Positions 37,789 through 62,583 of a stretch of DNA of 64,000 bases are shown one piece after another. The position numbers were made by a program, and so were the translations under genes. Origin of the DNA: Hexactinellida sp. DTS-2022 (lineage: Eukaryota > Porifera > Hexactinellida); NCBI GenBank assembly GCA_028753945.1, contig JAPNXP010000016.1:1364001-1428000 (forward strand), read 5' to 3'. Numbering within the stretch: position 1 is the first letter of the stretch; each line of letters starts with the position of its first letter. Under the pieces are notes generated by a model, which saw nothing but the letters and a program-made list of their open reading frames with translations, was not told where the DNA came from and did no database searches.

Positions 37789-38700
37789 ATGATTTATTTT
37801 AAAATAAAGTATATTTATATTATAATCTTTCTATTTACTGTTGAATATGGCTATATATCATTTAGATCATGGAGCAGGATAAATAAACACTGTAATGCCA
37901 AGGTCAAGAATGTAAATTTTCTTAGTACAGATCACTTGATTACAAATTCAGTATCTAAGGAAGGTCCATACCTGTTGTACATTCTTATAGTTAGTGCTCC
38001 TGCGAATGTGCAACAGCGGGATGGTATCAGGAATACTTGGGGATACACAGTAAGGAATTACAGTTCGATTAGATATTCATTTGTAATTGGGAGTGTAGGC
38101 GTATCGGACTCAGTTATGTCAACTATTCTAGAGGAGAAAGGGAAATTTGAAGATGTTATTGTATTAGATGATGTGGAAGAAGATTATAAAAAATTGTCCA
38201 GAAAAGTGTTAAAAGCTATCACATGGGCTGGTAAACACATAGTTTCAGTCTATTATCTTAAAACAGATGATGATTGTATTGTTATTATTGACAACCTGTA
38301 TGAAGTGTTAACCAAAGAGAATCTACCGACCAATAAATTAGTGCTGGGAATATTCAACATAAATACTGAAGTACTCTCTCGCGGGAAATGGGCTGAGTTG
38401 TCATGGTTTCTTTGCAGTGTCTATTTAAATTACCCTGCAGGTGCTGGTTACATACTCACTCAAGACATTGTTCGATACATAACACTAAATTCAGATAGAC
38501 TAATGCTTTATAGTAATGAAGATACCTCATTAGGTACCTGGTTGGCTGCACTTAAGCTGGATTATCTGATTGATAAAAGAATAAGACCAGACCCAAAATA
38601 CTGTAAACCTTCTGACTGGTTGATACATTATGGAGATCTTACACATTTAAAATACATTCACTATTCTTGGTTGAATGGAGTAAAACCATGCACTGCTTAA
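37789..38700 (+). CDS. GT31-family beta-1,3-galactosyltransferase-like protein, intronless
   Basis: 303 aa, single exon. Residues 8-22 form an uncleaved N-terminal membrane anchor, as in type II Golgi enzymes. Family motifs in order are RDGIRNTW (77-84), DDVEEDYKKLSRK (127-139), LKTDDDC with the DxD-type metal/UDP-sugar site (158-164), YPAGAGYILT (215-224) and EDTSLGTW (244-251). By family it transfers galactose or N-acetylglucosamine from a UDP-sugar in beta-1,3 linkage inside the Golgi; the acceptor cannot be told. The stem is short and the length slightly below typical animal members. The ATG at 37789 is chosen because it directly precedes the membrane segment. Lack of introns, beside an intron-rich gene, could mean retroposition or a normal single-exon GT31 gene. 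Confidence 0.88.
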   Translation: MIYFKIKYIYIIIFLFTVEYGYISFRSWSRINKHCNAKVKNVNFLSTDHLITNSVSKEGPYLLYILIVSAPANVQQRDGIRNTWGYTVRNYSSIRYSFVIGSVGVSDSVMSTILEEKGKFEDVIVLDDVEEDYKKLSRKVLKAITWAGKHIVSVYYLKTDDDCIVIIDNLYEVLTKENLPTNKLVLGIFNINTEVLSRGKWAELSWFLCSVYLNYPAGAGYILTQDIVRYITLNSDRLMLYSNEDTSLGTWLAALKLDYLIDKRIRPDPKYCKPSDWLIHYGDLTHLKYIHYSWLNGVKPCTA

Positions 38701-40680: not shown

Positions 40681-41954
40681 TTTATGTCTGCACATTTAAC
40701 CTTCTTTAGCAAGCTTTGCTCCCCTGACAAAAATCCTGGCTACGCCACCGTTTATATCAGTATACTATTTCTATTACCTGTCAACCTATTTGAGTCATAT
40801 ATATATATCCCTATAAGGGGCTCCAATTTCCCTGTACAATGATAAAAATCCCTGGACACCCCCAAAATTGTTTTCTCGCTCGCTGCGCTTGCTCGTCTAG
40901 CGTCGAGGGAATCCGTGTACACTTAAAGTGCAAGATATACTGAAAGTACAAGGTATACTATTTAATTATAATTAATCAGATCGACATCAATCAAATTAAT
41001 TACTTGATTGATTAGGAACTGTTAATTTGCACAAAACGAAATGCTACATTTTGAGTGTGTAGACATTTTAGGTATTACTGTATTAGACTCAGAGTCAGTA
41101 ATTTTGTTCCAACTAAATGATGAGTTGAGGCTTATGAGTTGAGGCCACGGACTAGTATGACGACTAGGCCACCAGACCTCAACCCATAGGGATGTTATGT
41201 GAGTGGTTTCGTCCCATTGCAGGGACTCATCAGGAGGGTAACCCTCGACCACAATGCGTACTGCCGCATTCCTGACTCCAGCCCGTAGCTCCTGCCAGTG
41301 CAGTGCCGTTCGAGATAGTGGGCATGAGTGGCGTATCTAGGTGGGGGTGGGGATTAGGGTGTTCAAACACCCCACTCATCTCCTACACACAGAAGTGGAA
41401 ATATAGTTTTGTTAAGTTGATCGATTTTCGGATCACTCACCCGCTATCCGATTTATTAATTAAAATATCTGTTTTATTCGTATTTCAACTTTGACAACAA
41501 AAAAACATTTTATAATAGATATATCATAAACCCACTTTCACTTTCACTTTCAATTGAAATTAAATTAAATTTCACTTTCACTTTACTTTCAATTGGTAAC
41601 TAAGAGTATAATTAATATCCTATTTGCCACAATTCAATTTCAACAGTTCAGTTGTATTTACTTATTAAAGTTTAGTTCGAATTTTCATTAATTTGTTTAC
41701 CTATTTGTTAATAACAACAACAACAACAACAATATACAGTCAGTATGCTTATTGTGAACTATTTTCGTCTGCTTATTAATATGAAAAACTTTTTATTATA
41801 AACAAGCTCTATGGTCCTGTCACTGGAAAATTGGTCCGGTGGACCAAAATTCCATGGAATTTTGGTCCCGGGTATAGTCTAGGACTCTAGGCTAGGACAG
41901 ATTATACTCCCTGCCTACAATAATGTGGGCGTCTGGTGTAATCTATGTATATGA
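40681..41954. other. Intergenic; GC-richer block 41090-41345 and CACTTT repeats
   Basis: 41090-41345 is distinctly more GC-rich than its surroundings (CCACCAGACCTCAACCCATA and others), which suggests a SINE or other repeat, but no promoter boxes in the right order were found. ACTTTCACTTTCA repeats at 41528-41592. Confidence 0.4.
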
Positions 41955-45378: not shown

Positions 45379-46239
45379 CAGGGTTGCCAACCCTCCCGAT
45401 TTTTTGCCTTTTTTTCTCCCATCCTCCCGCCCTCCCGCCAAACTTTTCAAACTCCCGCTTTTTGGGAAATTGTTTCTATATTATTATTTTATGATATATA
45501 AGTAAATAACTGGATTTTTTTGCTAAAATTAATCAAGATACGAGTACCAAGTTTTGTTCTACTCATGTATACGTACTTGTAAGTAGTTAAGATTATTTAG
45601 CGAATACTTAGTACACTGTACTATAATGTTTTAATTCGAATTTGGAAGAAATTCTTAAAAATATCCCGGATGGCCTTGCGCTACCCTCCAGAAATTTGTT
45701 ATACTAGATCCGATGCTGAATTTTTTTCTCGTTTAGTTTATATGTCGATCTATGCAACCAAGTGTGGATTAAGTTTACAACACAATTTACAAATCTGATG
45801 GCCTAATCGTCAAGAAATTCCTTGAAATCTCAATAAAAATGTTCATAAATTACGAGAACTTTCGAAGATATTTAACTGCTGCTACATCTACGTATATCTG
45901 AAAAAAAACATAATATTTGTAAAAAATTATAATTCATTAATCTAGCTATTTCATTTTTGTTGTATTATTGCATACATTGGGTGAATATGAGATACTCGGG
46001 AATAAATTTGATAGATAGACCTGTTTCGTAAAAATAAGCGTTTCCTAATACTAGATATCCAGACATAAAAAATAATCATTTTGTATCGTTCTATTCATGA
46101 TTGATTCAAAGAAATGGCATATATTTTGAGTCTCCCGCTTTTCTCCCGTTTTTTCATCTTCGACCTCCCGATTTTTGGTAAACTCCCGCCAAAATTGGCA
46201 AAATCTCCCGCTTTTTGGTTTTCAGAGGTTGGCAACCCT
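45379..46239. mobile_element. 861-bp hAT-type non-autonomous element
   Basis: Ends CAGGGTTGCCAACCCTCCCG ... GAGGTTGGCAACCCT with CTCCCGCTTTTT subterminal repeats. Flanked by a perfect 8-bp duplication GCCGTACG (45371-45378 and 46240-46247). No ORF. Confidence 0.9.
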
Positions 46240-46756
46240 GCCGTACGCGATGGTCTGACTAAACCATTGGGGATAGATATTTGAAATTTAGACAGGGGAT
46301 AGATAATTTCCTGGAGATGATCACCTCGAAGCGTGAATTCTCAGGATGTTCTTTCCATATATCAATTAAAATGAATAGGTCGCTAATCAATTCTCCGTTT
46401 TATTAACGGGCGTCGGGTGTTACGTAATCAGCCATCTTCTGCATATTGTAATAACTCTATTATTATAGAACAATTACATAATACTATACTACTAGATAAT
46501 GACTGTTATTTGATGTAATTGAGTATATGTTTCATACAAGTGCAAAGAAAACACTTGGAACATTTTACAAGTTTATGATGATGATTTCAATTCTATTATT
46601 CAAAATAGTAAAGTAAATTCTTCACTTATTCCTATTTATATTTGTAAAAGTTAATCCTACATTATTAATAAAAGATTTGTAATCTTCACAATTCAAACAT
46701 TAATTGTTTAACTATATTAAACTAAGATGAAAATCATGAAATGTATTTAAATCAGG

Positions 46757-46935
46757 GGTTTATCCAGGAGCGCGCCATACGCCTAGAGGCGTCTAAATTG
46801 GGAAGAGTTTTCGTTTAGGAGCGCGAAAACTGCCGAAAGTCCCCATAGAGTAATACAAAACTAACCTTTTAGGCGTACAAAATTCATACTATAGTGACCT
46901 TAGGACAGTTAGGAGTGTTCAATTCTAGACCTGTA
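46757..46935 (+). repeat. Interspersed repeat E, copy 3 (divergent)
   Basis: TATCCAGGAGCGCGCCATAC and TTTAGGAGCGCGAAAACTG correspond to the other E copies. Confidence 0.4.
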
Positions 46936-47061
46936 TAATACCCTGATTTAAATATTGAAATTCCGTTAAATTATACATTGGGTGCGGCCTGTGCAACCAG
47001 AAGAAGCACACTCCCATCCCGTCTGTGAGGGGTTTTATTAATTCAGTCTTTATTTTACTTA

Positions 47062-47769
47062 CGAGCCCTTCGGTCTCGGTCGCTTTGCGACAGATCGGTG
47101 CTACGCACCTCAAGTTAACGGCCGCTACGCGGCCTTACTCCTCACTAAACAATTGATTACATAGTTAGTAATATTTGTCATAGTTATATACATATAATAC
47201 CCGTTGAAAGCTAACATCTAGGTCGATTTTGAATTTTAATTAATTTGTTTACCTATTCTGTGTAAACAACAACAACAAATATTAATATTAGAAATCTTTT
47301 AACGCGAAATTCGTGTTCACCATACTTGTTTACCTATAATACCCGTTGAAAGCTAACATCTAGGTCGATTTTGGATTTTCATTAATTTGTTTACTTATTT
47401 GTGTCAACAACAACAACAACAAATATTCATATTATAAATTTATAAGCGCGAAATTCGTGTTCAGCATACTTGTTTACCTATAATACCTGTTGAAAGCAAA
47501 CTTCTAGGTTGATTTTGAATTTTCATTAATTTGTTTACTTATTTGTGTCAACAACAACAACAACAACAAATATTAATATTACAAATTTGTAAATGCGAAA
47601 TTCGTGTTCAGCATACTTGTTTACCTATTATTACATTTCTTTACCTATTATAACATTGGAAGTTAGTTTTTATCTCAATTATAAATGCGGTTATATTCCC
47701 CCATCACTCTAATACAATCCGGACAAACAAACACACAAACAAACAACAATCGAGATTTAATAATATAGA
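47062..47769 (-). mobile_element. Non-autonomous Helitron with internal tandem units
   Basis: On the minus strand it starts A|TCTATATTATTAAATCTCG and ends with hairpin GTCGCAAAGCGAC, then CTCG|T. Between them are three tandem copies of a unit of about 140 bp (ACCTATAATACCCGTTGAAA ... AACAACAACAACAAATATT ... GCGAAATTCGTGTTCAGC). 708 bp; the cleanest copy of the family here. Confidence 0.75.
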
Positions 47770-47869
47770 TATAGATGCTTCTATTTTGTTTATTAGGGGT
47801 TGTCGAGTGTGCGAAATTTAAATATGGTAGCCAAGTTAATTTTATCTACTATTTATGACAAATAATTAA

Positions 47870-49080
47870 TCTTAATAAACTTAAGATGACGTTGAATTTG
47901 GTGTTAAATTATTAATACTTATAAAAATCATTTAAACTAATTTGCTAAATAACATTAATCTCAGAGATGATACAAGATAAAAACAAACTTCCAATTGATC
48001 CTTATGCCACGTAACACCACTTTAAATGGGTCTTGACACATTGAAGTAACGATGACATAGTAAAAAAATGTGTTTTGACATATACCTTATTATAGGAAAT
48101 TAACGCGCCATGAAATTAACGAGAATTGGAGCTGAGCATTTTCAAATACATGAAATTAACGCGAATAATTTTAGAAAAAATTCAGGATTATTAATCTCCT
48201 GATTAAATACTATTTATTGTGCCAAAATAGGCTTCCAGTCTACTTGATAGACATGGTATATCCTTTCAACCTAGTTGCACATCTGAAAATATGTAGCTCG
48301 GAAGTTTGTCCATCCATTGTATAATTTTGCTAAATATGTAGCAGGAAATTAAGGTCATGGAAATTAACGCTCCATGAAATTATCGAGAAGGAAATTAAAG
48401 TGATTTGGAGAAATTCGCGTTAATTTCATGGCGCGTAAATTTCCTATAATAAGGTATACTCTGAAAGGGTTGGTTGGTGTTGGGTGAATACCCAACACTC
48501 ACATAAAAAATGCTGAGTCATCACCTATTATATTCTACTGAAACTTGAATATCTTTGAAATGAAGTGAGCTAAAACGAAACTTCCAACTCACAAAGTGTC
48601 GTTCCCTACCGAATCACCTTTCTGAAATGGTTTAATACCTTCATAGTGAATATGACAAGGGGAAAAAATCCAAAATTGCAAGTCCTGACAGCATTTTCCT
48701 TTGGAGGCATTAACCAGCCAGTAGCCACCAAAAGACTACAAAGGGAAATGCGTCGGAACAGCTGCAATTTTTGATTTTTTTTCTCCGTAGACGATTGCCT
48801 GGCCACACCTCTATACATTGAAGGCTGAAACTTGGAATGTAGGTGCAGTGTCCGTCTAATTTGCACTTGGGGTTACGATTTTTGATCAAATAATTTTAAA
48901 ACATATTTAAACTAATTATGGCTCATCACATAAAATAATTAATAGTGAGCATTGATAAAATTTACATATTTGGATAGATAATTAAATTCTACACCTTTTG
49001 GCAAATCACAAATGTTCAATGTATCCTAGGTTTATGCCATAATTGGGGTGCCAATTTCCTCTATTTCCTCACACTTCAGA
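47870..49080. repeat. Interspersed element F, copy 2, with nested MITE
   Basis: Same segments as 44480-45235 (GATCCTTATGCCACGTAACA, GGGTTGGTTGGTGTTGGGTG, TTAATACCTTCATAGTGA). The MITE 48086-48453 is inserted. Confidence 0.55.
48086..48453. mobile_element. MITE with CTTATTATAGG termini, copy 2
   Basis: Ends CTTATTATAGGAAATTAACG ... TTTCCTATAATAAG. Inverted relative to 15917-16313 and sharing its interior (TCAGGATTATTAATCTCCTG). Confidence 0.8.
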
Positions 49081-49469
49081 ATAAGATAAAAAAAATAGCA
49101 ATAAAATTGTTCATTTTTTGATACAAGCGTGAAATTGGCACAGGCATAGATAAATAAATTATCGAAAGATATGGATATGGAGGCATCACGAAATTTTAAT
49201 ATTTTCAAGTTGGCGGCCAAAAATTGTCGGAAAGTGTCGGACAAAAGCCCGCTATCGCGATTACTTTGTTAAATGACCTCGTAGAGTGTTTATATGCGCA
49301 TAGTTATAACTTCTCAAATGACTGTGCGATGAAGAAAGAGGGGTCATTCGAAAGGGTAGAAACAATATTTGAGAATGGAATGTGTTACATTCCAGCGTTG
49401 TCAAGGAATGTCCTCTCTCCCAAACATGGTCAATAAAATAGGGTGGAGTGAGAAATGTAAATTATATAT

Positions 49470-49779
49470 TTAAGCTTAGCTAGACTGCGCAATTTATGTT
49501 ATTAGGTTTATAGGGTGATTTTGAATTTTCATTAATTTGTTACCTTTTTTGTAAACAACAACAATAATATTCATACATATTTAATTAAAATAAAAAAATG
49601 CGAAATTTGAAATCAGCATACGTACTTGTTTACCTATTATAACATTTGGAAGTTAGTTTCTATCTCGTATATAAATGCAGTTTCTATTCCCCCATCACTT
49701 TAATGCAAATTGGACAAACAAACACACACAGTGGTCACACCCACACAAACAAACAACAGTCGAGTTTTAATAATATAGA
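49470..49779 (-). mobile_element. Helitron fragment with intact 5' end
   Basis: On the minus strand it starts TCTATATTATTAAAACTCGA and contains family body units. No 3' hairpin end found. Confidence 0.5.
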
Positions 49780-49884
49780 TTCATCAATAGTTTCTTAAAA
49801 TCCTTAGCCCCTGAAAGTTCTCGCCTAAAACATTTTTGAACGCTTAAACTAAATAAATCCTAATTAAATTCAAAAATTTAAATA

Positions 49885-50185
49885 TACAATATAACCTCAT
49901 TAGTACGAACACGGATAATTCGAATTTCCGGTTACTATGAACACAATTTTTGGACGCTTCAAAGAATCTTCAATTCGAATAACACCGGTTGATACCAATT
50001 TGTTACCATGAAAGTGCAAATAGACTATTGCAAAATAGCCGAAATAGAAGACAAGAAAAGTGATTATTTGATTTATACAGTACTAACTGACTTTACATTA
50101 TATTGAGATAAATATAAATTTACTAAATGGTTAAAAAAATTAGTACCTACTAAGCCGAAGTACGTACTAACCGAGTTATACTGTA
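49885..50185. mobile_element. pogo-like MITE
   Basis: Ends TACAATATAACCTCATTAGT ... ACTAACCGAGTTATACTGTA. 301 bp. Confidence 0.75.
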
Positions 50186-50576
50186 GTACATAGTACATAT
50201 ATGTATACAAAAGCAAATTAACTCTGTCAATTGAAGTTCAATCAATGTTTAATGCTGATATTCGTAATCAGCATAAGATTTCCAGTCATTATAGGGGTCA
50301 CATGACCATGTTTTGGAGGGAGGACATTCCTTGACAACGCTGGAATGTGACACACCCATTCTCAAATATTGTTTCTACCCTATCGAATGACCCATCTTTC
50401 TTCATCGCACAGTCATTTGAGAAGTTATAACTATGCGTATATAAACACTCTACGAGGTCATTTAACAAAGTAATCGCGATAGCGGGCTTTTGTCCGACAC
50501 TTTCCGACAATTTTTGGCTGCCATCTTGAAATTATTAAAATTTTGTGATGCCTACATATCCATATCTTTTTATAAT

Positions 50577-51270
50577 ATATTACTTTAAAGGGCAATTTCT
50601 TTTGATGTGACTTTGCTCCTGGCAGTTAAAACAGAATATTCTCGAACTTCGGCATTCCCTAGCAATATGAGCGATTTTATCTATACTATTAAAACACAAG
50701 CCTGAGTGGGTGTGTGTATATGTTATGAGTTGATTGAAGTGGACGGTTTCCAAATGTGATTTTTGGCATATAGGGGTAACTTTTGGCACCCGCCAACAAG
50801 TTGAGGTTTCCACTCAAAATTTCTCACCTCGACAAGTTATGACGTCATTGTCACATTTCGAGAACCCTGAAAATTCACTTAATCGCACATAATTCCCGCC
50901 CTTTAAGAGATAAAAATCTTAAAATTTAATAGAACATGTACATTAATGATGCGGACACGTTGGTCACACCAGATTGCCAATATGCTTACTCATTATCGCA
51001 TGATGACGTAATCACTAAATTTTCACATTGTTAAAATTGACTATTTAGGCCTATTTATGCTTTATAATCAATGTTAGAACTTAGAAGTATATAAACCACA
51101 CACCAATCGCGAAGCGGTTGGTGTGTGGTGTTCTGCCGCGAAGCGACCTAGCAAGCGAAGCGCGCTAGTTGCATTTAAAACAGAATATTCTCGAACTTCG
51201 GCATTCCCTAGCAATATGACCGATTTTATTGCATTTAAAACATCTGAAATTTGAATTTCGAGAACTGTTA
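50577..51270 (-). pseudogene. Triple CCHC zinc-knuckle exon split by a Helitron
   Basis: With the Helitron 50680-51168 removed, the minus strand reads three knuckles in frame: CFKCNKIGHIAREC, CFKCNKIAHIAREC and CFNCQEQSHIKRNC, then PLK and a stop (TAA). Each has C-x2-C-x4-H-x4-C spacing, typical of nucleic-acid-binding Gag-like or CNBP-like proteins. The first two knuckles are near-identical tandem copies. A coiled-coil-like stretch (RLKNLEEKFEKVLDTLGST) lies further upstream near 51311-51367 and may belong to the same protein. Whether the parent gene was a retrotransposon Gag or a host gene is open. The insertion breaks the exon. Confidence 0.65.
50680..51168 (+). mobile_element. Non-autonomous Helitron in the zinc-knuckle exon
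   Basis: Host GATTTTA | TCTATACTATTAAAACACA ... GCGAAGCGCGCTAG | TTGCATTT: starts TC, ends CTAG, inserted precisely between A and T. 3' hairpins ACACACCAA...TTGGTGTGT and TAGC...GCTA precede the end. 489 bp, no target duplication, no ORF. Confidence 0.85.
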
Positions 51271-52227: not shown

Positions 52228-52580
52228 GATACTTTTCACTTTTATATAGACAGTAAAGTTTAGAAATCGGTTTGAAATAAGCTATCACTTATACGGCAAT
52301 TTTATATCCAGTAATCTTGAATACCTGTATTATTAGACATGACTTTTTGTGTTGGAAAACTATAGTTATGCAATTCTTTGGGTGTGGGAGTGGGTAATAG
52401 CCATTCGACTGCAATGTTGTTAGAATGACAGAAACCTCCTAGGCTGGTATTGTTATATTCCAAATGACACTTCTCTATTTGCTCTGGACACAGAATTATG
52501 GCGTGTGAAAGTGTGCTCGATTTTTTTGTCCAATTTCGCTGCCAACTTCACACTCATATTACAAGAACCGTATTAAGAAG
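52228..52580. other. Nothing recognised
   Basis: Spacer between the OTU fragment and the P-like element. The last 8 bases (TTAAGAAG) are the element's probable left target duplication. Confidence 0.4.
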
Positions 52581-53184
52581 GGGAACACTTAGTGAATTTT
52601 CAACATTCGAATTTGAGAAATTTGAAATAGCCATTAATTTACTCTATAACTATCTAGTAAATATCCATAATATTAGAAGTTGCGAATTCATATATCCTAG
52701 GTTATAGCTAATTCAAATTTCTATACTATAGTGATCCATACTAGCCAATTATCGACGATTTACTATCTAGAATTAAAATTTCGAATAGTAACCTCAATTA
52801 TGAATTGTTCCTTACTCTATTTAGCGACGTCTGGCCATGTACGAATTTTTATTTTGGACTTAAAATTTTATTTTTAGAAATTTATTTATAAAATATATCG
52901 TGAACTACGAAATAAAAGGACATGCCTTTGAATTAAATAAATGGACCATGGATATGTTAGAAGTGCCAAATAGCGTTCATTCATTTATGTCAATTAATGC
53001 TGTTCGAGTATAAGTTTTATAGTAACTGTCCAAGAAATGTTTTTTCATGATTTATGAGTTCATTTATTAATGAATAATACTCATCAAAACACAAATGCAT
53101 GCAATTTACAAGTTAAAATTCATATTTCTACGGCAAATATGCTATCCATTAAGCTTGCTCACAACCTATATAGTACTTGAATAG

Positions 53185-56080
53185 TTATGAGTACTTGAAT
53201 TTTTTAATTTTGCGATTTTCATTGTTTGAATTTGCAAGTTCTCTGAGTATTGAGTTAACATTCCTGACTTTATTGGCTAGAATACAGTTTGCTGCAACTG
53301 ATGTGATTTTACGGAGTATAGTCCATCCTTGTTGATTACAGGATCCGCACGTATTTCTCCAGCTGACACATTGTGTATCCTCTATGTATGTAATAGCGAG
53401 TTGTATTAATATCATTCTTGAAGGTCATGCCAAAAACTGCTGCATTAAGTTAGAATCACCTTCTATTGATATATAGATTTTCAAAACAATAATAATAGCA
53501 TCTATCACAATATGTGATGGCCATTTGAGTGCACCTCGATCGATAAGCTGAATGAATTTGTGAGTATCCTTTTCATCCACAATTTCTAGCTCTTTATCCT
53601 GTGTCAGCAAGGACAAACAAGCTTTGCACTTACTAGATTGTTTGAAATACGTATGGACTGCATGACCTCCTACAAAGGCGATTGATTGAAGAAGTGAAGT
53701 TTCCAGTGTAAGGGTCGGAAAAGATTCCATTGCTAGGAGATATGTGTCTAAATTTAATGAATCTGATGGTTCATCAAGTGGAAGGAAAAGGATTCGATTA
53801 TACCTTTTAGATTCACGTAATCCGATTCGTTTTTTTTGAGAAACTCTTCAGTATGCTTGATAGTTTAATACGCCGTTCGCTTTCAAGTATTTGAGTAAAA
53901 GTGATATGATATTGTGCACCTGACATCATATGGTACAATCCAAAGTGATGTTCAATCGGGTCATTCTGTAATCGTGATGTGAGTACATAATCAAAACCAC
54001 AGTTATGAGTGAGATGATTTACGATTTCGATCAGCGCTAGACATGAATGGAAAAAGCTAGTAAATGTCTGAGGACTTAATTTTCCATATTTACCCTCACG
54101 AGATCTCCAACGTGCAAGCCAGTTGATTATGAGCCTGAGGAAATTTAAACGTTCATCATTATTGTGAAGAGGTCTTGAAAGCTCATCATTAAGTCGTATG
54201 TGTTTATGTGTAGTATTTATATTGAATATCTTCCATACTTTTATAATAATGTCTAGAAATTCGCATGTCTTGCGGGATTCAAAGTCTGTTCGCTTAGAGT
54301 TGTAAATTGATAGAGCTGTAAGTGTTGATGTATCAAATATTTTCAAAGCCAGGTTGACATTTTGTCTTTCTAAAATAGTGGGCCAACAGGCCTTTGCTGT
54401 TAAACGATGTGCCTGTTTGAGGACCGAAGTTTGCTCATTTTTGTAAAGTAATCGAACATCTTGGAATTGAGCAATATTTACTTTGTGTGTGTCGTCAAAG
54501 TTAGGAAAAATTAACGAATTTGGGTAGGCAAACGCACGCTCGTAATCTTTTAAATTGAGCCAATTGTTTCTAATTGATTTAATTATGTGCACGAAGTCGA
54601 AGATTAAAAAGAGTTTTCTTTCTGGATCATTTGGGGTGAATCACGGTAGGAGATAAAGTCTTGTTATCTGCCGAAAATAATTTGAAAAAATTAACGTTAA
54701 GTGGATAGTTGTCAGTGCAGATGACTTGTACTGTCAGACCACAACATTCTACATCACAAATAACAGATTTGACAACTGCAAATATCTCGTCAGCAGAGTT
54801 AGAAGAACATGGAATTAGGCGGACAATTTGCGACCACTTTCTGGACAAGCTTGATACCATTATAGCGAAAACAGTTTTAATTGGTTCATTTGGTAACATA
54901 GAATATCCGAGTATTCTTCCTCCCTTATAAGCAACGGTGGACTTGACATGTATCTCGTCCATTTGTAAAATTACATTGCGGTCTCTATTACTAAAGTCTG
55001 AAGTCGCTTGCTTAAGAAATGCTAGAAAATCGCTTTCTAAACCAAAGTTTGAATAGAGTTTTTGTAGGGTTCTTGGATACGGTAATGATATACATCTAGT
55101 GATTGTAAATATCTGTAGCTCGCTGGAGATATGAGATGAGCTTTTAATGCCATAACTTGGGTAATACATTATATCTCTTCCTCTTCTTATGTACAAGAAA
55201 ATTATTTAATTGGCATTCAATAAATTGAAGTTGAGATAAATGATGAGAATTTTCGAGATCATCGTCATTAATTAAGTCTGGAAATTGCGTGTATAATGCA
55301 CTAATAGATAGAGTAATTTGATTTGAAGCTTGCTTAATGTGATATTCAGATGAGTTCAGGTTAGTAGATATGGTGTCTGGTGTACGTACTTCTGTAATTT
55401 CGTTCAAAAAAGTTTCTACTTGTCGGGTATCTGATAAGAAGTTGAGTGCAAGAGGAACAGCAATATTATCACGAAATGCCAAGACACTTAGGTTATTACT
55501 TATTGTGACAATGTCAAAGAATATTTTACCTTCAAAGCCAGACCTGATAGTTCAGGCTGATAGATGTGAATAATATCGAGCTCAGAATGCCAAACCATCC
55601 AATTATCAGGTAAATTAAGCGATGATATCTTCGAAATTAGGTCTTGGAAATCGTCGACTCTAAACCTTAACTCCTCCCGTTTTTGTTGCTCAAGGCTTAG
55701 TTGGAGAGCTTGTGCAAATTGTTGTCCTTCTTTTGAGTCTCGTGTAAGCCGAGTGGGTCTGTCCAGAGACGCTGTCGAAAGATATGTAGGGAGAGTAAGA
55801 GAGAAGGAACTGCATTTAGACGAAGTTTTGGCCTTTCACGCAACTTTTCGGTGACACTTCCGTCAGCTTGCAAAATTTTGTCTATAGTGACAATGTCCTC
55901 GGGGTGAAAGTGAAGTTGGCAAACATATACATGTTTTAGATTTTCAATGTCCACTCGATGAAGTGCTCTTAGCCATTGATGACGTAGTTCTGGTGGGTCA
56001 GTTGGAAGTTTAAAAACTGGTGTGTATGGCTCACCACGGTAATTACCACGACATCCAGGTGCGAAGCACTGGTTAGGCAT
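53185..56080 (-). pseudogene. P-element/THAP9-type transposase, frameshifted
   Basis: Reading right to left: THAP domain (56080-55697); then an open frame with a small probable intron (55487-55529); NVILQMDEIHVKS (first catalytic D) and ICTDNYPLNVNFF; HPNDPERKLFLIFD and HIIKSIRNNWLN; LQNDPIEHHFG (the DPxE motif with the catalytic E); and the C-terminal ALKWPS / KCKACLSLL region at 53425-53730. The order and motifs are those of P transposases. The frame changes at least at about 55700, 55170, 54636 (an extra C) and 53815, so the copy is dead. It could still be a source of titrating terminal repeats. Confidence 0.85.
55697..56080 (-). CDS. THAP zinc-finger domain of the P-like transposase
   Basis: Starts MPNQCFAPGCRG. 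The C5-x4-C10, KLP24-26, W36 and C54-x2-H57-F58 residues plus AVPSL near 93 are the THAP signature (C2CH DNA-binding zinc finger). By family this domain binds sites inside the element's own ends. The frame then runs into a stop at 55697, while the homologous downstream sequence continues in another frame. Confidence 0.88.
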   Translation of the reverse strand: MPNQCFAPGCRGNYRGEPYTPVFKLPTDPPELRHQWLRALHRVDIENLKHVYVCQLHFHPEDIVTIDKILQADGSVTEKLRERPKLRLNAVPSLLLSLHIFRQRLWTDPLGLHETQKKDNNLHKLSN

Positions 56081-57136
56081 CAAAATACCAAGACTGGCTA
56101 AATAAGCTAGGAAACAAGACAACAACCAATTAATTAATAATTATTGTTGAATGAGCAGAGGAATAGGAGTTGCTAAAATAAACCAATCATCCTGTAATAT
56201 AGACAAAAGTAGTTGAGTCAGAGAAAATAAGTTATTTCGTATCAAGAAGCGATGAGAAACATAATTATGGAAATTAATGTTAAAAAATAACTAAATATAG
56301 TTGTAAACAAACAATTTCTAAAAAAATGGTTGCTTATTATTGTCGCCAAAAAATTATTATAAAACCATGACGAATTTTATGATAAAAATATCAAAGTATA
56401 TAAATTAGATTACAATTTGTTAGCTATAACCAATGCACTTCTAACATATCTATGGTTCAATTATTTAATTCAGAGGCATGTCCTTTTATTTCGTAGTTCA
56501 CGAATATATATATTTTGTATCAAAAAAATGTATATTTTATAAATAAATTTCTAAAAATAAAATATATAAAATTTTAAGTCCAAAATAAAAATTCGTACAT
56601 GGCCAGACGTCGCTAAATAGAGTAAGGAACAATTCATAATTGAGGTTACTATTCGAAATTTTAATTCTAGATAGTAAATCGTCGATAATTGGCTAGTATG
56701 GATCAGTATAGTATAGAAATTTGAATTAGCTATAACCTAGGCCACGGGTAACTTAACTTAGCACTTTGTCTGAAAAAATACGGACGCTGATGTATTATCT
56801 GTTTCCTTAACAGAATTTTATCTTGATTCAGGATTTGCACTAAAACATTAATTTCCAATGGAGGCTTTTCTATAATTTGTATTAAACCGTTATTGATTAT
56901 ATGGCTTATGTTAACTGACCATTAAAATTGGATTTGAATTAATAGCTACCCATAAATTTAATTTCTTTCTGTTGAAGCTTGTAAAGTATTTATTTTTTAC
57001 ACAAATATCTAGTAAACCTACTATAAGAGTATTTAATTAATAAGTACAACTCCCTATTATGAATTAATATAATGTTCTTCTGATATAATTAATCTGACGT
57101 ATTTGCCATCTTATAATTACGTCTATAATGTTATAC

Positions 57137-57145
57137 TATATAAAA
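57137..57145 (+). promoter_or_regulatory. Putative TATA box of the 676-aa transposase
   Basis: TATATAAAA 37 bases before the ATG and inside the inverted arm, so an identical copy faces inward at the right end. Position relative to the true transcription start is unknown. Confidence 0.4.
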
Positions 57146-57181
57146 ATACTACGTATATATATAATTAGATTTTAGAATAAT

Positions 57182-59212
57182 ATGGCTACTGTAAATAGAC
57201 ACGATGCCGCGAAATATCAAATTTGCAGATGGTGTTGTGTAAAGATAGGTAAAGGAAGAGTTGCAACACTCACTGGACAAACTAGGGACCACTACATCAA
57301 GCACTTTGAACCTATAAATGATTCGGATAATTGTCGCCCTTTGGTTGTTTGTGTGACGTGCAAATTATATTTGGGAAAAGCTTCGAGAGGTAGCCCACCA
57401 AAGAAGATTCCATCAAGATTCCCGTGGCCAACTTTGCCTACCACGAGATTTAACAGTTGTAGCTTTTTGAAAACTGGTAGTAATGGTGCAAAGATGTGCG
57501 CTATGTGTACAGAAGCTACACGTTTTGGTTCAAAGAAAAAAGCACCGAAAATAATTCGTCATACTAATCCCGGACGGCCTCTGGAGAAATCACCTAAAAG
57601 GCCCATTCTTAGATGTAACAAATGTGCCGCAACCATTTCTCGAGGACTCCAACACATCTGTAATGATATCTCCCTTATTTCAAATGTTCGTTTGTTATTA
57701 CAGTATAGGAATTGTGTAAACCGATTTATAGCAGACGATATTTCCCGGAAATTAAGCTTTGAGAAGTCCACCCATTTTACTACTACTCTTTCGCGTCATA
57801 AAGGTGGCCATCCACTACAAATTACAGCTTCCTCTACCAAATTTCTTGGTAAATCGCGAAATTCCCTGGGTAAAACAAATGAACTCAATATGACCCACAT
57901 AGCAAGATTAAAACGAGCTGGTTCTGGAATGACTAACAACATGCTTAAGCAAGTCACTCAAATAATTCGTACAACTGGGATTAAATGTCCAACTACATCA
58001 CGTTATTACACTGAGCGTGATGCTTTACTAGAGGACTGTATGGAATATATTCAGTTGGAACTCGATATTGGAAAGAAACACGAAGAGAAACTGATTTTTA
58101 TTTGGACTGTTCGCTGTACTGATGTCAGAACATTGCTAGAACGGATTTATAATCCCCATGGAAATATTAATGTTTCTCTACTCCATTTCAAATTAGGATT
58201 GGATTTTGGGAGAGGGTTTTTAAAACTCCTTATATCTGAGCGACTGTTAAACTCCGTAAATAAAGTTTACTATCTTTGGGTTGCTCAGGCGCAGGAATCT
58301 TATCATAACTTCCAGGTAATTTTTGACCATGAACAAATTAAAATTTTATTATCTGAATATATTATTTCACTGAGCGTTGATCTCAAGGCGGCATCGTTTG
58401 CATGCGGAGTGATGCTCGGACGTTTCCCCTGTATTTGGTGCAATTGGAATGTAAATGATAATTTCATTGAAAATAACCCTGCCAATACGATAAGAAATAG
58501 CGCCCATCACATGGAGATGTGGAATAAGCTCCAGCTTAAGTTTAAGGGAAACAGGAAGAAACATTCTAAAGACTGCGATGGTGTTGAAAATATACCAGTT
58601 GTAGATAAATGGCTTGCTGATAACATGGAAATATGGAATATTCCCGAACTTCACCTTCTCCTAGGTATTGGGCAGAAACTGTATGACAACATCTTAGCTA
58701 CAATGTCTGAAGATGAGCATAATCAACATAATGAGCAATTGAAAAAGTATGGAATTGTGTCAAGTGATTACCATGGAAATGCCTTTGAGGGTAATGCCAT
58801 GAGCAGACTCCTAAAAAATATTCCAAAGTTGGGAATGAATCCAAACAATTCTTGTGTGATCGCTCTAAAACGTTTCAAGGATGTTGTACAAGTTTGTTTT
58901 GGAACCGAGGTCAGTGGTAATTATTCTCAAGCTATAATGTTTTTTGAAGAAGCCTACAAATCAACTGGACTAAGTTGCACTGTGAAAGTACATTGTCTTT
59001 GTCGTCATGTCAAAACATTTATTGAACAGTTTCTGCCTCAAGGAGCGGGGCTTGGTGCATGTTCAGAACAGGCGTTTGAGAGTTCTCATTCCAGATTTAA
59101 AAATGTTTGGGAAAGACAATACAAATGTAATCAATACAGTCCTCACTACGCAAAGAATCTCTACTACACAGTTTGTGAGCTCATGTATTGTAATTATATG
59201 GCAAACATTTAG
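57182..59212 (+). CDS. Putative DDE transposase with RAG1-like zinc-binding N-terminus, intact
   Basis: 676 aa, uninterrupted. The N-terminus has C15-x2-C18, H38/H41, C57-x2-C60 (VVCVTC), FPWP (80-83) and C106-x2-C109 (MCAMC), then GRP (131-133) and C145-x2-C148. This spacing resembles the zinc-binding N-terminal region of RAG1 and of N-RAG-TP-type transposons. The C-terminal half has candidate catalytic residues D341 (LGLDFGRGFLK), D400 (SVDLKAASFACG, followed by C417-x2-C420) and E629 or E633 (ACSEQAFESSHSRFK), plus PELHLLLG (488-495) and KVHCLCRHVKTF (602-613). The layout fits the RAG1/Transib/CMC group of DDE enzymes that cut and rejoin element ends. The first 133 codons lie inside the left inverted arm. 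Exact superfamily not assigned. Confidence 0.72.
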   Translation: MATVNRHDAAKYQICRWCCVKIGKGRVATLTGQTRDHYIKHFEPINDSDNCRPLVVCVTCKLYLGKASRGSPPKKIPSRFPWPTLPTTRFNSCSFLKTGSNGAKMCAMCTEATRFGSKKKAPKIIRHTNPGRPLEKSPKRPILRCNKCAATISRGLQHICNDISLISNVRLLLQYRNCVNRFIADDISRKLSFEKSTHFTTTLSRHKGGHPLQITASSTKFLGKSRNSLGKTNELNMTHIARLKRAGSGMTNNMLKQVTQIIRTTGIKCPTTSRYYTERDALLEDCMEYIQLELDIGKKHEEKLIFIWTVRCTDVRTLLERIYNPHGNINVSLLHFKLGLDFGRGFLKLLISERLLNSVNKVYYLWVAQAQESYHNFQVIFDHEQIKILLSEYIISLSVDLKAASFACGVMLGRFPCIWCNWNVNDNFIENNPANTIRNSAHHMEMWNKLQLKFKGNRKKHSKDCDGVENIPVVDKWLADNMEIWNIPELHLLLGIGQKLYDNILATMSEDEHNQHNEQLKKYGIVSSDYHGNAFEGNAMSRLLKNIPKLGMNPNNSCVIALKRFKDVVQVCFGTEVSGNYSQAIMFFEEAYKSTGLSCTVKVHCLCRHVKTFIEQFLPQGAGLGACSEQAFESSHSRFKNVWERQYKCNQYSPHYAKNLYYTVCELMYCNYMANI

Positions 59213-59256
59213 TCAACAAATTCGTGAACTCAACAATATTATCTATTCATATTGTT

Positions 59257-59397
59257 ATACATACCGGATATAAGAACACGTCGGGAACAGCATATAGTGT
59301 TCTCATAAACGGCATAAATTATACAGGGTATATGGAAACCGTTTCCAATATAGTGTTCTTATATCCGGTATGTTCTTATAACCGGTATCTACTGTAT
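59257..59397. mobile_element. Truncated pogo-like MITE between transposase and right arm
   Basis: CCGGATATAAGAACAC and GTGTTCTTATATCCGG are inverted. The right end continues ATAACCGGTATCTACTGTA, a typical TA-ending pogo-like terminus. The left terminus is missing. Confidence 0.5.
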
Positions 59398-59529
59398 ACA
59401 TTATGCCTATATACCAATATATGACCCATACAAATATAAATATTTTTTAATTCTGTGATTTGATTAATCATTGGTAAATAATAGCTTTATTTAGGACTAG
59501 TTTAAAAGAGTAGAGGAATTAGATATCCT

Positions 59530-60358
59530 AGGCCGTCCGGGATTATTATGACGAATTATTTTCGGTGCTTTTTTCTTTGAACCAAAACGTGTAGCTTCTG
59601 TACACCAGAGTGGACCATGGGTCAACATTGGTGACCCATGACCCATCTGACCCATCCCATTTCTGACCCATGACCCATTGACCCATTGACCCATGACCCA
59701 TCGAGTGACCCATTGACCCATCACACAATTTTAAATATCTAAATACTATAGTGTAACATTAACAGAATAACAGAATAACCGTTTAAATTACCTCAACAAA
59801 CCTACTTGTTGCAATGTCGAATACGTTTAGTATTTCAATGCACATCAATGTTATAATAATATTGATGATGATGAGTGAAACGTATTTTAACTGAAGATTA
59901 CATTGAAATTCCACATGGGTCATGGGTCATGGGTCACGGAGCCGTGACCCATGACCCATCTGACCCATCGATTTAGGTGACCCATCTGACCCATGACCCA
60001 TGACCCATCGACCCATGGTCCACTCTGCTGTACACATAGCGCACATCTTTGCACCATTACTACCAGTTTTCAAAAAGCTACAACTGTTAAATCTCGTGGT
60101 AGGCAAAGTTGGCCACGGGAATCTTGATGGAATCTTCTTTGGTGGGCTACCTCTCGAAGCTTTTCCCAAATATAATTTGCACGTCACACAAACAACCAAA
60201 GGGCGACAATTATCCGAATCATTTATAGGTTCAAAGTGCTTGATGTAGTGGTCCCTAGTTTGTCCAGTGAGTGTTGCAACTCTTCCTTTACCTATCTTTA
60301 CACAACACCATCTGCAAATTTGATATTTCGCGGCATCGTGTCTATTTACAGTAGCCAT
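59530..60358 (-). pseudogene. Antisense N-terminal-only copy of the transposase, interrupted
   Basis: The right arm repeats codons 1-133 of the 676-aa ORF, from an ATG at 60358, and past the arm continues only ten codons (RISNSSTLLN) to a stop at 59497. Before the hAT insertion at 59606-60027 this frame would have ended at about 143 aa with just the zinc-binding domain. The insertion now diverts it into GACCCAT-derived codons. The arm differs from the left copy by at least one residue (HNNPGRP versus HTNPGRP). Confidence 0.75.
59606..60027. mobile_element. hAT-type MITE built from GACCCAT repeats
   Basis: Ends CAGAGTGGACCATGGGTC ... GACCCATGGTCCACTCTG, flanked by a perfect 8-bp duplication CTGTACAC (59598-59605 and 60028-60035). 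Both ends expand into tandem GACCCAT(GACCCAT/CTGACCCAT) words around a short unique core. 422 bp. Confidence 0.93.
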
Positions 60359-60916
60359 ATTATTCTAAAATCTAATTATATATATACGTAGTATTTTTAT
60401 ATAGTATAACATTATAGACGTAATTATAAGATGGCAAATACGTCAGATTAATTATATCAGAAGAACATTATATTAATTCATAATAGGGAGTTGTACTTAT
60501 TAATTAAATACTCTTATAGTAGGTTTACTAGATATTTGTGTAAAAAATAAATACTTTACAAGCTTCAACAGAAAGAAATTAAATTTATGGGTAGCTATTA
60601 ATTCAAATCCAATTTTAATGGTCAGTTAACATAAGCCATATAATCAATAACGGTTTAATACAAATTATAGAAAAGCCTCCATTGGAAATTAATGTTTTAG
60701 TGCAAATCCTGAATCAAGATAAAATTCTGTTAAGGAAACAGATAATACATCAGCGTCCGTATTTTTTCAGACAAAGTGCTAAGTTAAGTTACCCGTGTAG
60801 GATATATGAATTCGCAACTTCTAATATTATGGATATTTACTAGATAGTTATAGAGTAAATTAATGGCTATTTCAAATTTCTCAAATTCGAATGTTGAAAA
60901 TTCATTAAGTGTTCCC

Positions 60917-61109: not shown

Positions 61110-61490
61110 TCATTTAGATGGAAGGAAGTATGGGTCTTGTATATCATTGTAAAAACTATCTCCTGACCTCTTTAAGATTCTATGGTACTTTTTACTCAGT
61201 GACTGGGCATGTCTAGTTGGATTAAAAGAGTAATTCTTCAAAATAGCATCCCAATCGTTCCCAAACCGCTCACGACCTCTCATGAGATTGTTAATCTCAT
61301 TCCTAGTCCAGAAATTCCTAGGCCTGTCTCTGTATTTATGCTCGGGCGTAGAATGTAATATAGATTTGTTGCGGAGTACGCTTTCTTCCGAATTGGCGGG
61401 ATTAGTCAACCTATCTGATGTAGCATTAATTTCGTTACTGTTTGTAGTTGTTTCACGAGGAATAGCTGAACGTGTTTCATCAATAGGTAC
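61110..61490 (-). CDS. Myb/SANT gene, last exon (second Myb domain)
   Basis: 127 codons including the stop, entered in phase 0 after acceptor AATTCCAG. Starts VPIDETRSAIPRETTTN. The Myb/SANT-type helix-turn-helix is FWTRNEINNLMRGRERFGND then WDAILKNYSFNPTRHAQSLS, with aromatic residues at the expected spacing. It ends DPYFLPSK and a stop. DNA binding is the likely role. The form, with KYG/RFG-x-W and a final KDKW-like helix, resembles telobox-type Myb domains, but no target can be inferred. Confidence 0.75.
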   Translation of the reverse strand, partial: VPIDETRSAIPRETTTNSNEINATSDRLTNPANSEESVLRNKSILHSTPEHKYRDRPRNFWTRNEINNLMRGRERFGNDWDAILKNYSFNPTRHAQSLSKKYHRILKRSGDSFYNDIQDPYFLPSK

Positions 61491-62115
61491 CTGGAATTAA
61501 ACAAACTGTTAATAAACTCGAGTAGACAATAGTAAGTCACAAACATGTTGCTAACAGAACTTGCTAATAATTAAAGGAACAGAAATTAAGTAATTAGGAT
61601 TAGTAATATCTTAAAGGGCTGACTGAGCCTGACTCAAATATCGATCAACACATTTTCAATACAAAACCTTGCTTCGCAAAGGAAATTATGATGCTAAGAA
61701 AATTATCTTGTCATTGCCTGAAAATTATATATTGGTCGATATATAAGTAATTCCTATCTTCTATCGCACCTAAATTTCGAGGACGAGTTCACCAAAAACA
61801 AGTTTCAAACCAAATTCAAGCTTCCTAATATACTTCTCCCAACTAGTAAATACTAGAATTCCTAAAACGTCCACACCTGTGCCCTGGTCCAAGTTTCAAA
61901 TAAGCGCTCGTTTGTTTATAATGTTAATTTAAACAGATTTAGTCATCGGGTAATATGTAGAAACAATGTAGAAGATGTGAGAAATTGTGGAGAGCTGGAA
62001 CAGATTTCAAATATTAAATAAATAGTTTTGATGTATCTTGGAGGGGACTGAGGGTTTAACTAATTTAGATAAAATAAACATTGCAGGCCATTTCTGGTTG
62101 TAGGAATAAATTGGT
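61441..62115. repeat. Segmental duplication, copy 1
   Basis: Nearly identical to 63025-64000 after removing the MITE at 63209-63510. Covers the start of the last Myb exon and almost all of its upstream intron. Confidence 0.9.
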
Positions 62116-62121
62116 GTATAC

Positions 62122-62583
62122 CTTATCAGAATTATATTCTTCCGGTTCTGATTGTTCATGAGACTTGTATCCAGTATTCTTGCGAAATTCGCGTAAATAT
62201 TTAGAATATTCTCCATTTTTCTTGAGGATAAGATATTTATCGCGGAGTGCAGTCGGAGTTCGAGAAAAAAGGAAGTTAGAATTTGTGTGTATTTTATTCC
62301 AACGTGTCCCATACTTGCTTACTCCGATAACGAGCAATTGGTCTTCTTGGACTGTCCATGGTATGCATGGCTTGGGTTTCTTAAATACATCGGTTATTAG
62401 TTTCTGAGTATTTCGTTGTTGTTGTTTTATATGTGTTAGTATTCCTTTTTCTTCTGGTGATGTTTTAATTAATTTAATCCGCTTAGGTTTAAAGTTAGGA
62501 CAAGTCCGATTTCCAATACTAATTGCAGTGTGCTCTGTGTGTAGGTCTGTTGCAGTCTCTCCAGTGATCAGGTTGCTGCCAGC
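62122..62583 (-). CDS. Myb/SANT gene, middle exon (first Myb domain)
   Basis: 154 codons, phase 0 at both ends (acceptor CGTCTAG, donor GTATAC). A basic linker (FKPKRIKLIKTS) precedes the Myb domain PWTVQEDQLLVIGVSKYGTR, W, NKIHTNSNFLFSRTPTALRD, KYLIL. Followed by an acidic tail HEQSEPEEYNSDK that joins VPIDET in the last exon. Confidence 0.75.

Follow-up and report, generated by a model that had tools for sequence, protein, structure and literature searches.

A recently inserted, autonomous-looking DNA transposon, most likely of Chapaev type, in a hexactinellid sponge contig

The question raised by this locus is whether a RAG1-like N-terminal region and a CMC/Transib-like core, found together in one open reading frame (ORF), belong to a transposon of a known kind or form a link which had so far gone undescribed. 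The DNA analysed (the window) comprises 64,000 nt of Hexactinellida sp. DTS-2022 (assembly GCA_028753945.1, contig JAPNXP010000016.1, positions 1,364,001–1,428,000, forward strand), and the element in question is a transposon with CACGGG ends and a length of 4055 bp as present, or 3625 bp when a later miniature inverted-repeat transposable element (MITE) and the 8-bp duplication of the MITE are subtracted. A first-pass annotation had described an intact, CAC-ended transposon with a 5-bp target duplication, a RAG1-type N-terminus and a CMC/Transib-like core, and had considered that it may be recently active and is possibly undescribed. The element was found to be a real transposon, young-looking and intact-looking, with a proven insertion site. 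It appears to be a cut-and-paste DNA transposon of the CMC/Transib (CMCT) clade, autonomous-looking and inserted recently, with Chapaev as its most likely type; this reading, made from sequence, is given a probability of about 0.68. As such it is most likely a fresh representative of an already known transposon kind, and the family itself may already stand in Repbase.

Insertion site, ends and arms

The transposon lies in one arm of a surrounding P-element-like transposon, the terminal arms of which span ~290–390 nt. The sister arm of the P-like element (52579–52871, reverse strand) lacks the insertion and reads CCTAGGATATATG. When the two flanks of the transposon were joined they differed from this sister arm by 2 mismatches in 293 positions, while farther out the match is broken by gaps of 27 and 9 nt and by four additional differences. 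The uninterrupted sister arm is thus a natural empty site, which proves an insertion of ~4 kb accompanied by the duplication of TAGG.

The left flank reads TAGGC and the right flank TAGGA, and the empty site likewise reads TAGGA, so that the duplication is exact over four bases, with C on one side and A on the other at the fifth. The flank letters of the first-pass annotation were therefore correct, and TAGG is exact, but a 5-bp duplication was rejected as an established feature given the C/A difference. As the fifth base differs and a single insertion is at hand, duplications of 3, 4 or 5 bp are all compatible with the flanks: AGG if the terminal bases of the element are unlike, TAGG if one C is extra, or TAGGA if one base has changed. 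The last of these is rather unlikely because the arms of the element carry one change in 838 bp. The extra base in the 4-bp option likewise needs explaining, and position 56742 may be an extra terminal C. Chapaev elements have a target duplication of 4 bp.

Both termini begin with CACGGG (CACGGG...CCCGTG), as had been noted, and the arms start with CACGGGTAAC. The terminal 20-mer (up to 3 mismatches) was matched in the window at the two ends alone (0 of 100 shuffles). The terminal 10-mer (up to 1 mismatch) also matches 13330–13339, which is at chance level with 12 of 100 shuffles giving at least three matches. A repeat finder detected the inverted arms in two pieces, one of 773 nt (100% identity, rounded) and one of 76 nt (99%). 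Base-by-base pairing (56743–57512 with 60028–60797 and 57513–57580 with 59530–59597) gave arms of 838 bp with a single mismatch at 57564, and the near-identity first seen over 773 nt consequently extends farther than had been found. Position 57513 was considered as a second mismatch and rejected, because an insert starts there. What the identity of the arms dates is the last copying event common to both, and the insertion itself may have been a separate event.

At its inner end (59526–59535) the right arm carries CCTAGGATAT, the same ten bases as in the element's own target, with divergence beyond. These shared bases may be the trace of a template switch or may be due to chance.

It could be argued that the arms are a local inverted duplication within a degenerate or chimeric repeat and not transposon ends, in keeping with the unusual reach of 838-bp arms into coding sequence and with the occurrence of CCTAGGATAT at both the inner right-arm end and the target. 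This is highly improbable, as the P-like sister arm shows the site without the 4 kb, TAGG is duplicated on both sides, CAC is present at both ends and the ORF is intact.

The transposase and its similarity to RAG1

The transposase ORF encodes 676 amino acids without interruption, and its translation agrees with the first-pass annotation in the CxxC pairs at residues 15, 57, 106, 145 and 417 and in the FPWP motif. Upstream of the core, residues 142–226 were found to be similar to residues 314–407 of mouse RAG1, a segment which in RAG1 covers the end of the RING, a C2H2 finger and the first part of the nonamer-binding domain, where GGRP is located. The transposase sequence KGGHPLQ faces KGGRPRQ of RAG1 in this alignment. 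The alignment score of 69, compared with shuffle means of 36–39, is the one strong pairwise signal. It was reached by 0 of 500 plain shuffles (residues 1–240) and by 0 of 1000 in which Cys and His were fixed, the best scores of such fixed shuffles being 61 (residues 1–240) and 67 (residues 120–240). The corresponding BLASTP E value was 0.002 in a single-subject search. Among the 44 stop-to-stop frames of at least 90 aa in the window (transposase ORF included) the transposase ranked first with 69 and the next frame scored 51, although its length also far exceeds that of the other seven frames listed in this ranking. A loose CxxC-H-CxxC-CxxC-GGxP order, drafted after both proteins had been viewed, fits the transposase and RAG1 and occurred in 0 of 20,000 shuffles, while a stricter pattern (CRxC...YxxHxP...) fits RAG1 and misses the transposase.

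Within the core, the order D341, D400, C417-x2-C420, H491, H604-x4-H609 and Glu is that of mouse RAG1 (C727-x2-C730, H795, H937-x4-H942, E962). The full pattern D-D-CxxC-[LIVM]HxxxG-Hx3-4H-E, with spacings chosen so that both proteins fit, is present in the transposase and RAG1 and arose in 34 of 20,000 shuffles. BLASTP aligned residues 604–663 weakly with RAG1 937–995; plain shuffling of the last 96 residues reached the score in 3 of 500 cases, and shuffling of residues 580–676 with Cys and His fixed did so in 10 of 1000. The candidate catalytic residues D341, D400 and E629–E633 proposed initially are present and fit the motif order, but E629 was rejected as the catalytic Glu in favour of E633, which BLASTP places opposite RAG1 E962. 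Taken together, the ORF, the arms and the motif pattern support the description of an intact, recent-looking, CAC-ended transposon with a CMC/Transib core motif layout.

Several observations weigh against this reading. Residues 1–125 gave a score of 31 with RAG1, which was equalled by 811 of 1000 shuffles and is at chance level. When the acidic residues were removed from the core pattern and HxxxG was kept, 129 of 20,000 shuffles matched, and the bare CxxC-H-Hx3-4H was found in 3829 of 20,000, so that the zinc motif by itself is weakly specific and proves little. For longer core queries the RAG1 score was reached by 22 of 500 shuffles (residues 315–676) and by 62 of 1000 with Cys and His fixed (residues 395–676). 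Single-sequence HHalign comparisons with RAG1 returned probabilities of 1.6% and 0.3%; these run contrary to the shuffle tests on which the claim of RAG1 similarity rests. Two single-sequence AlphaFold models (mean predicted local distance difference test scores of 31.4 and 37.1) were too poor for assessment of an RNase H fold. Neither the whole transposase nor its core matched Pfam, the transposase had no match in PHROGs or NCBIfam, and searches of PDB sequences returned two rows each (E 0.8–2.1), taken as chance. A PDB search with RAG1 as the query listed RAG1L (6b40) and HzTransib (6pqn).

The similarity to RAG1 upstream of the core accordingly lies at residues 142–226. Residues 1–125 were rejected as a proven RAG1 N-terminal homologue on account of the chance-level alignment, with the motif order alone in agreement, and the two Pfam rows obtained with residues 1–170 (E 0.22 and 0.23) were taken as chance.

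Relatives of the transposase were also sought in other sequence collections, where single-protein scans of viral and genome contigs detect close relatives alone. The viral contigs contained no pattern match to the whole transposase or to a known transposase fragment, and one unconfirmed pattern match to residues 127–219. Prokaryote genome contigs gave 15 pattern matches with the whole protein and 25 with residues 581–676, with none confirmed. No relative was found in phages and plasmids by tblastn with the transposase. A 17-mer of the terminus occurred in three viral contigs, none of which encodes a relative (best E 4.8), and this was taken as chance. When the window itself was searched by tblastn, the transposase matched itself, the right arm (in two pieces) and a single further place with an E value of 0.18.

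Affiliation of the element and a proposed mechanism

The CMCT clade is described as marked by two Cys and three His residues, with C(2)C and H(3–4)H placed between the second Asp and the last Glu, by mostly CA..TG ends and by target duplications of 2–5 bp (PMC12730594). In the hexactinellid element C417/C420 and H604/H609 are located between the second Asp and the last Glu, and H491 may be the third conserved His of that definition. The CACGGG...CCCGTG ends and the duplication of TAGG relative to the empty site also agree with the description. Within the clade, the Chapa N-terminal zinc domain has been reported from Chapaev, Chapaev3 and, as the truncated N-terminal part of RAG1, TransibSU; two Chapaev subgroups have a RING in addition, and Chapaev transposases are only distantly related to those of other Transibs (PMC4411706). 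The same paper reports the domain, as of 2015, in no other known transposable elements. An architecture like that published for Chapaev is suggested for the hexactinellid element by a Chapa-like region rich in cysteine, the GGHP motif, a distant core, the CAC ends and a duplication of ~4 bp. By published description, the likeness to Chapaev and Chapaev3 lies in the cysteine-rich N-terminus, a DDE-type core far from Transib and CA..TG ends, to which a small duplication of ~4 bp may be added, and the differences are that no RING finger was recognised here and that the 838-bp arms include the start of the ORF.

The suggestion that the element might be an undescribed link between RAG1-type N-termini and a CMC/Transib-like core did not hold, as a RAG1-type N-terminal zinc domain on a CMC/Transib-type core was published no later than 2015, under the name Chapa, for the transposases of Chapaev, Chapaev3 and TransibSU (PMC4411706). 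The published picture is unchanged by the present element, with the N-terminal zinc domain and the core of RAG1 already joined in an ancestor common with Chapaev (PMC4411706).

It is rather unlikely that the element is a true member of the Transib superfamily (Transib, TransibSU or RAGL); its 5-bp duplication would then be TAGGA, and an A in one copy would have become C. CAC ends and 5-bp duplications are given as marks of RAGL, ProtoRAG and Transib (PMC7204232), and the empty site agrees with the right flank in reading TAGGA. With RAGL, TransibSU, ProtoRAG and RAG1 the element also shares CxxC pairs, GG(R/H)P and the CxxC...H...HxxxxH...E layout, and the H-x4-H...E alignment to RAG1 lies within the weaker of the two segments (142–226 and 604–663) which align with mouse RAG1. 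However, complete RAGL transposons are described as having RAG2L (PMC7204232), and here no ORF of at least 80 aa could encode one, as 56743–60797 contains, besides the transposase, only frames of 82–143 aa that are antisense or overlapping. Introns in such a gene are possible, yet the space from the ORF to the right arm is only 317 bp. The cores of TransibSU are reported as >30% identical to RAG1 over ~600 aa (PMC4411706), whereas only two stretches of ~60–90 aa align here and the core is unalignable over its full length. Membership of RAGL fails because there is neither a RAG2-like gene nor a long core alignment; the lack of a recognised RING is a further difference, and of a putative 5-bp duplication four bases are identical. 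One change in 5 bp also fits poorly with one change in the 838-bp arms, and the sequence following CAC matches the protostome RAGL consensus (PMC7204232) at two of the next eight positions when compared by eye.

A CMCT lineage other than Chapaev and Transib (EnSpm, Mirage or an unnamed one such as animal relatives of CNEST), with a 2–3-bp duplication and unlike terminal bases, is distinctly unlikely. A duplication of AGG with terminal C/A would fit the empty site as well, EnSpm/CACTA, Mirage and CNEST have conserved core Cys and His residues and CA..TG ends, and unclassified animal CMC transposases are described beside Chapaev and Mirage (PMC12810828). Against this stand the Chapa-like N-terminal layout and the GGHP motif, given that the Chapa domain is reported in no other known elements (PMC4411706). 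The N-RAG-TP transposon of Aplysia resembles the present element in having a protein like the RAG1 N-terminus but, compared by description, consists entirely of RAG1 N-terminal-like sequence (PMC8355894), whereas a core is also present here.

As a Chapaev-type element, it would encode a transposase of the DDE type, in which the N-terminal zinc region and the GGHP segment may bind subterminal DNA at the ends of the element. By analogy, cutting beside the CAC ends would fall to an RNase H-like core (D341, D400, E633) which has a split zinc site (C417/C420, H604/H609), and the cut ends would be joined to a staggered target with duplication of ~4 bp. The probable origin of the 838-bp arms is a repair event, at a gap or in a broken element, in which one end served as the template for the other; this would give the right arm its second leader copy and a reading frame for the N-terminal region only. 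A putative N-terminal-only protein from this frame might act as a DNA-binding competitor, and the two facing leaders together with the 838-bp inverted repeat are predicted to give antisense or hairpin RNA. A bolder interpretation, which we regard as improbable, is that of an independent CMCT lineage whose core belongs to neither Chapaev nor Transib and is joined to a RAG1-type zinc region with GG(R/H)P, and in which the arms yield a transposase and an N-terminal-only, self-limiting competitor. If so, the two-product arms would constitute a built-in competitor restricting the element's own movement.

With its intact ORF, its natural empty site and one difference in 838 bp of arm, the element is a reasonable candidate for testing Chapaev-type mobility today. 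This transposon kind has parts of its layout in common with RAG1 both upstream of the core and inside it, and the reach of RAG1's GGRP-type end-binding segment beyond Transib is a further question to which the element lends itself.

Order of insertions and other features of the window

The coordinates of the features are collected in Table 1. The empty site, the insert in the right arm and the presence of codons 1–133 within the arms are additions to the first-pass annotation.

Table 1. Features of the CACGGG-ended transposon and of its surroundings, in positions of the window.
Feature	Positions	Strand	Basis
Transposon	56743–60797	+	inverted arms, empty site
Left arm, 838 bp (end, presumed promoter/5' leader, ORF codons 1–133)	56743–57580	+	repeat finder, base-by-base pairing
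Right arm, inverted copy of left 838 bp, split by MITE	59530–60797	-	repeat finder, base-by-base pairing
Target duplication, left copy (TAGG + unmatched C)	56738–56742	+	
Target duplication, right copy (TAGG + A, as in empty site)	60798–60802	+	
Transposase ORF, 676 codons	57182–59212	+	ORF listing, translation
Cysteine-rich N-terminal region, residues 15–160 (CxxC at 15, 57, 106, 145; FPWP 80–83)	57224–57661	+	
Residues 142–226, similar to mouse RAG1 314–407 (GGHP 208–211, GGRP 389–392 in RAG1)	57605–57859	+	
D341, candidate first catalytic Asp	58202–58204	+	motif-order position only
D400, candidate second catalytic Asp	58379–58381	+	motif-order position only
C417-x2-C420, ZnC2-type pair	58430–58441	+	
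H491 in LHLLLG, like RAG1 H795 in LHCDIG	58652–58654	+	motif pattern
H604-x4-H609, ZnH2-type pair, BLASTP-aligned to RAG1 H937-x4-H942	58991–59008	+	
E633, candidate catalytic Glu, BLASTP-aligned to RAG1 E962	59078–59080	+	
Right-arm ORF, 143 aa (transposase residues 1–110, then MITE-encoded tail)	59927–60358	-	ORF listing, tblastn
hAT-like MITE, 422 bp, inside right arm	59606–60027	+	
P-element-like transposon (THAP and TNP-like ORFs), flanked by TAAGAA	52580–60917	-	
Uninterrupted arm of P-like element (empty site)	52579–52966	-	

As codons 1–133 lie inside the left arm, both the leader and the N-terminal coding region recur in inverted orientation in the right arm. The MITE in the right arm has the ends CAGAGTGGACC and GGTCCACTCTG and an interior rich in TGACCCAT, and is flanked by an exact 8-bp duplication, CTGTACAC, at 59598–59605 and 60028–60035, with the uninterrupted left arm serving as its empty site. 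CAG-type ends are typical of hAT elements. An 8-bp target duplication is likewise described as a hAT hallmark (PMC6004678). The nested empty sites give the order of insertion as the P-like element, then the CACGGG-ended transposon and then the MITE.

The P-like element has, in separate frames, a THAP ORF (55697–56125; Pfam E 6e-13) and a TNP-like RNase H ORF (54627–55196; E 2.9e-14), and it also has a GTP-binding insertion ORF (53813–54592; E 1.1e-4, slightly under the Pfam cut-off). Beyond the transposon, a Myb/SANT-like ORF (Pfam E 5e-5) and a nearby frame similar to it by eye were noted at 61110–61409 and 62065–62337, adjoining direct repeats at 61510–61624/63093–63207 (96%) and 61623–61922/63508–63807 (98%).

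Elsewhere in the window, cadherin domains were detected in four of the five other ORFs scanned, all four on the minus strand between 7169 and 23860 (Pfam E 8e-22 to 2.7e-6, the last slightly under the cut-off), and they indicate that the host is probably an animal. A 303-aa ORF on the plus strand (37789–38700) has a galactosyltransferase domain (Pfam E 9.7e-30). The sole Rfam match at the gathering threshold was a type III hammerhead ribozyme on the minus strand at 41201–41254 (57.9 bits, E 2.9e-10). Several diverged repeat families, in both orientations, are common to distant parts of the window (15503–16424 and 46237–50581).

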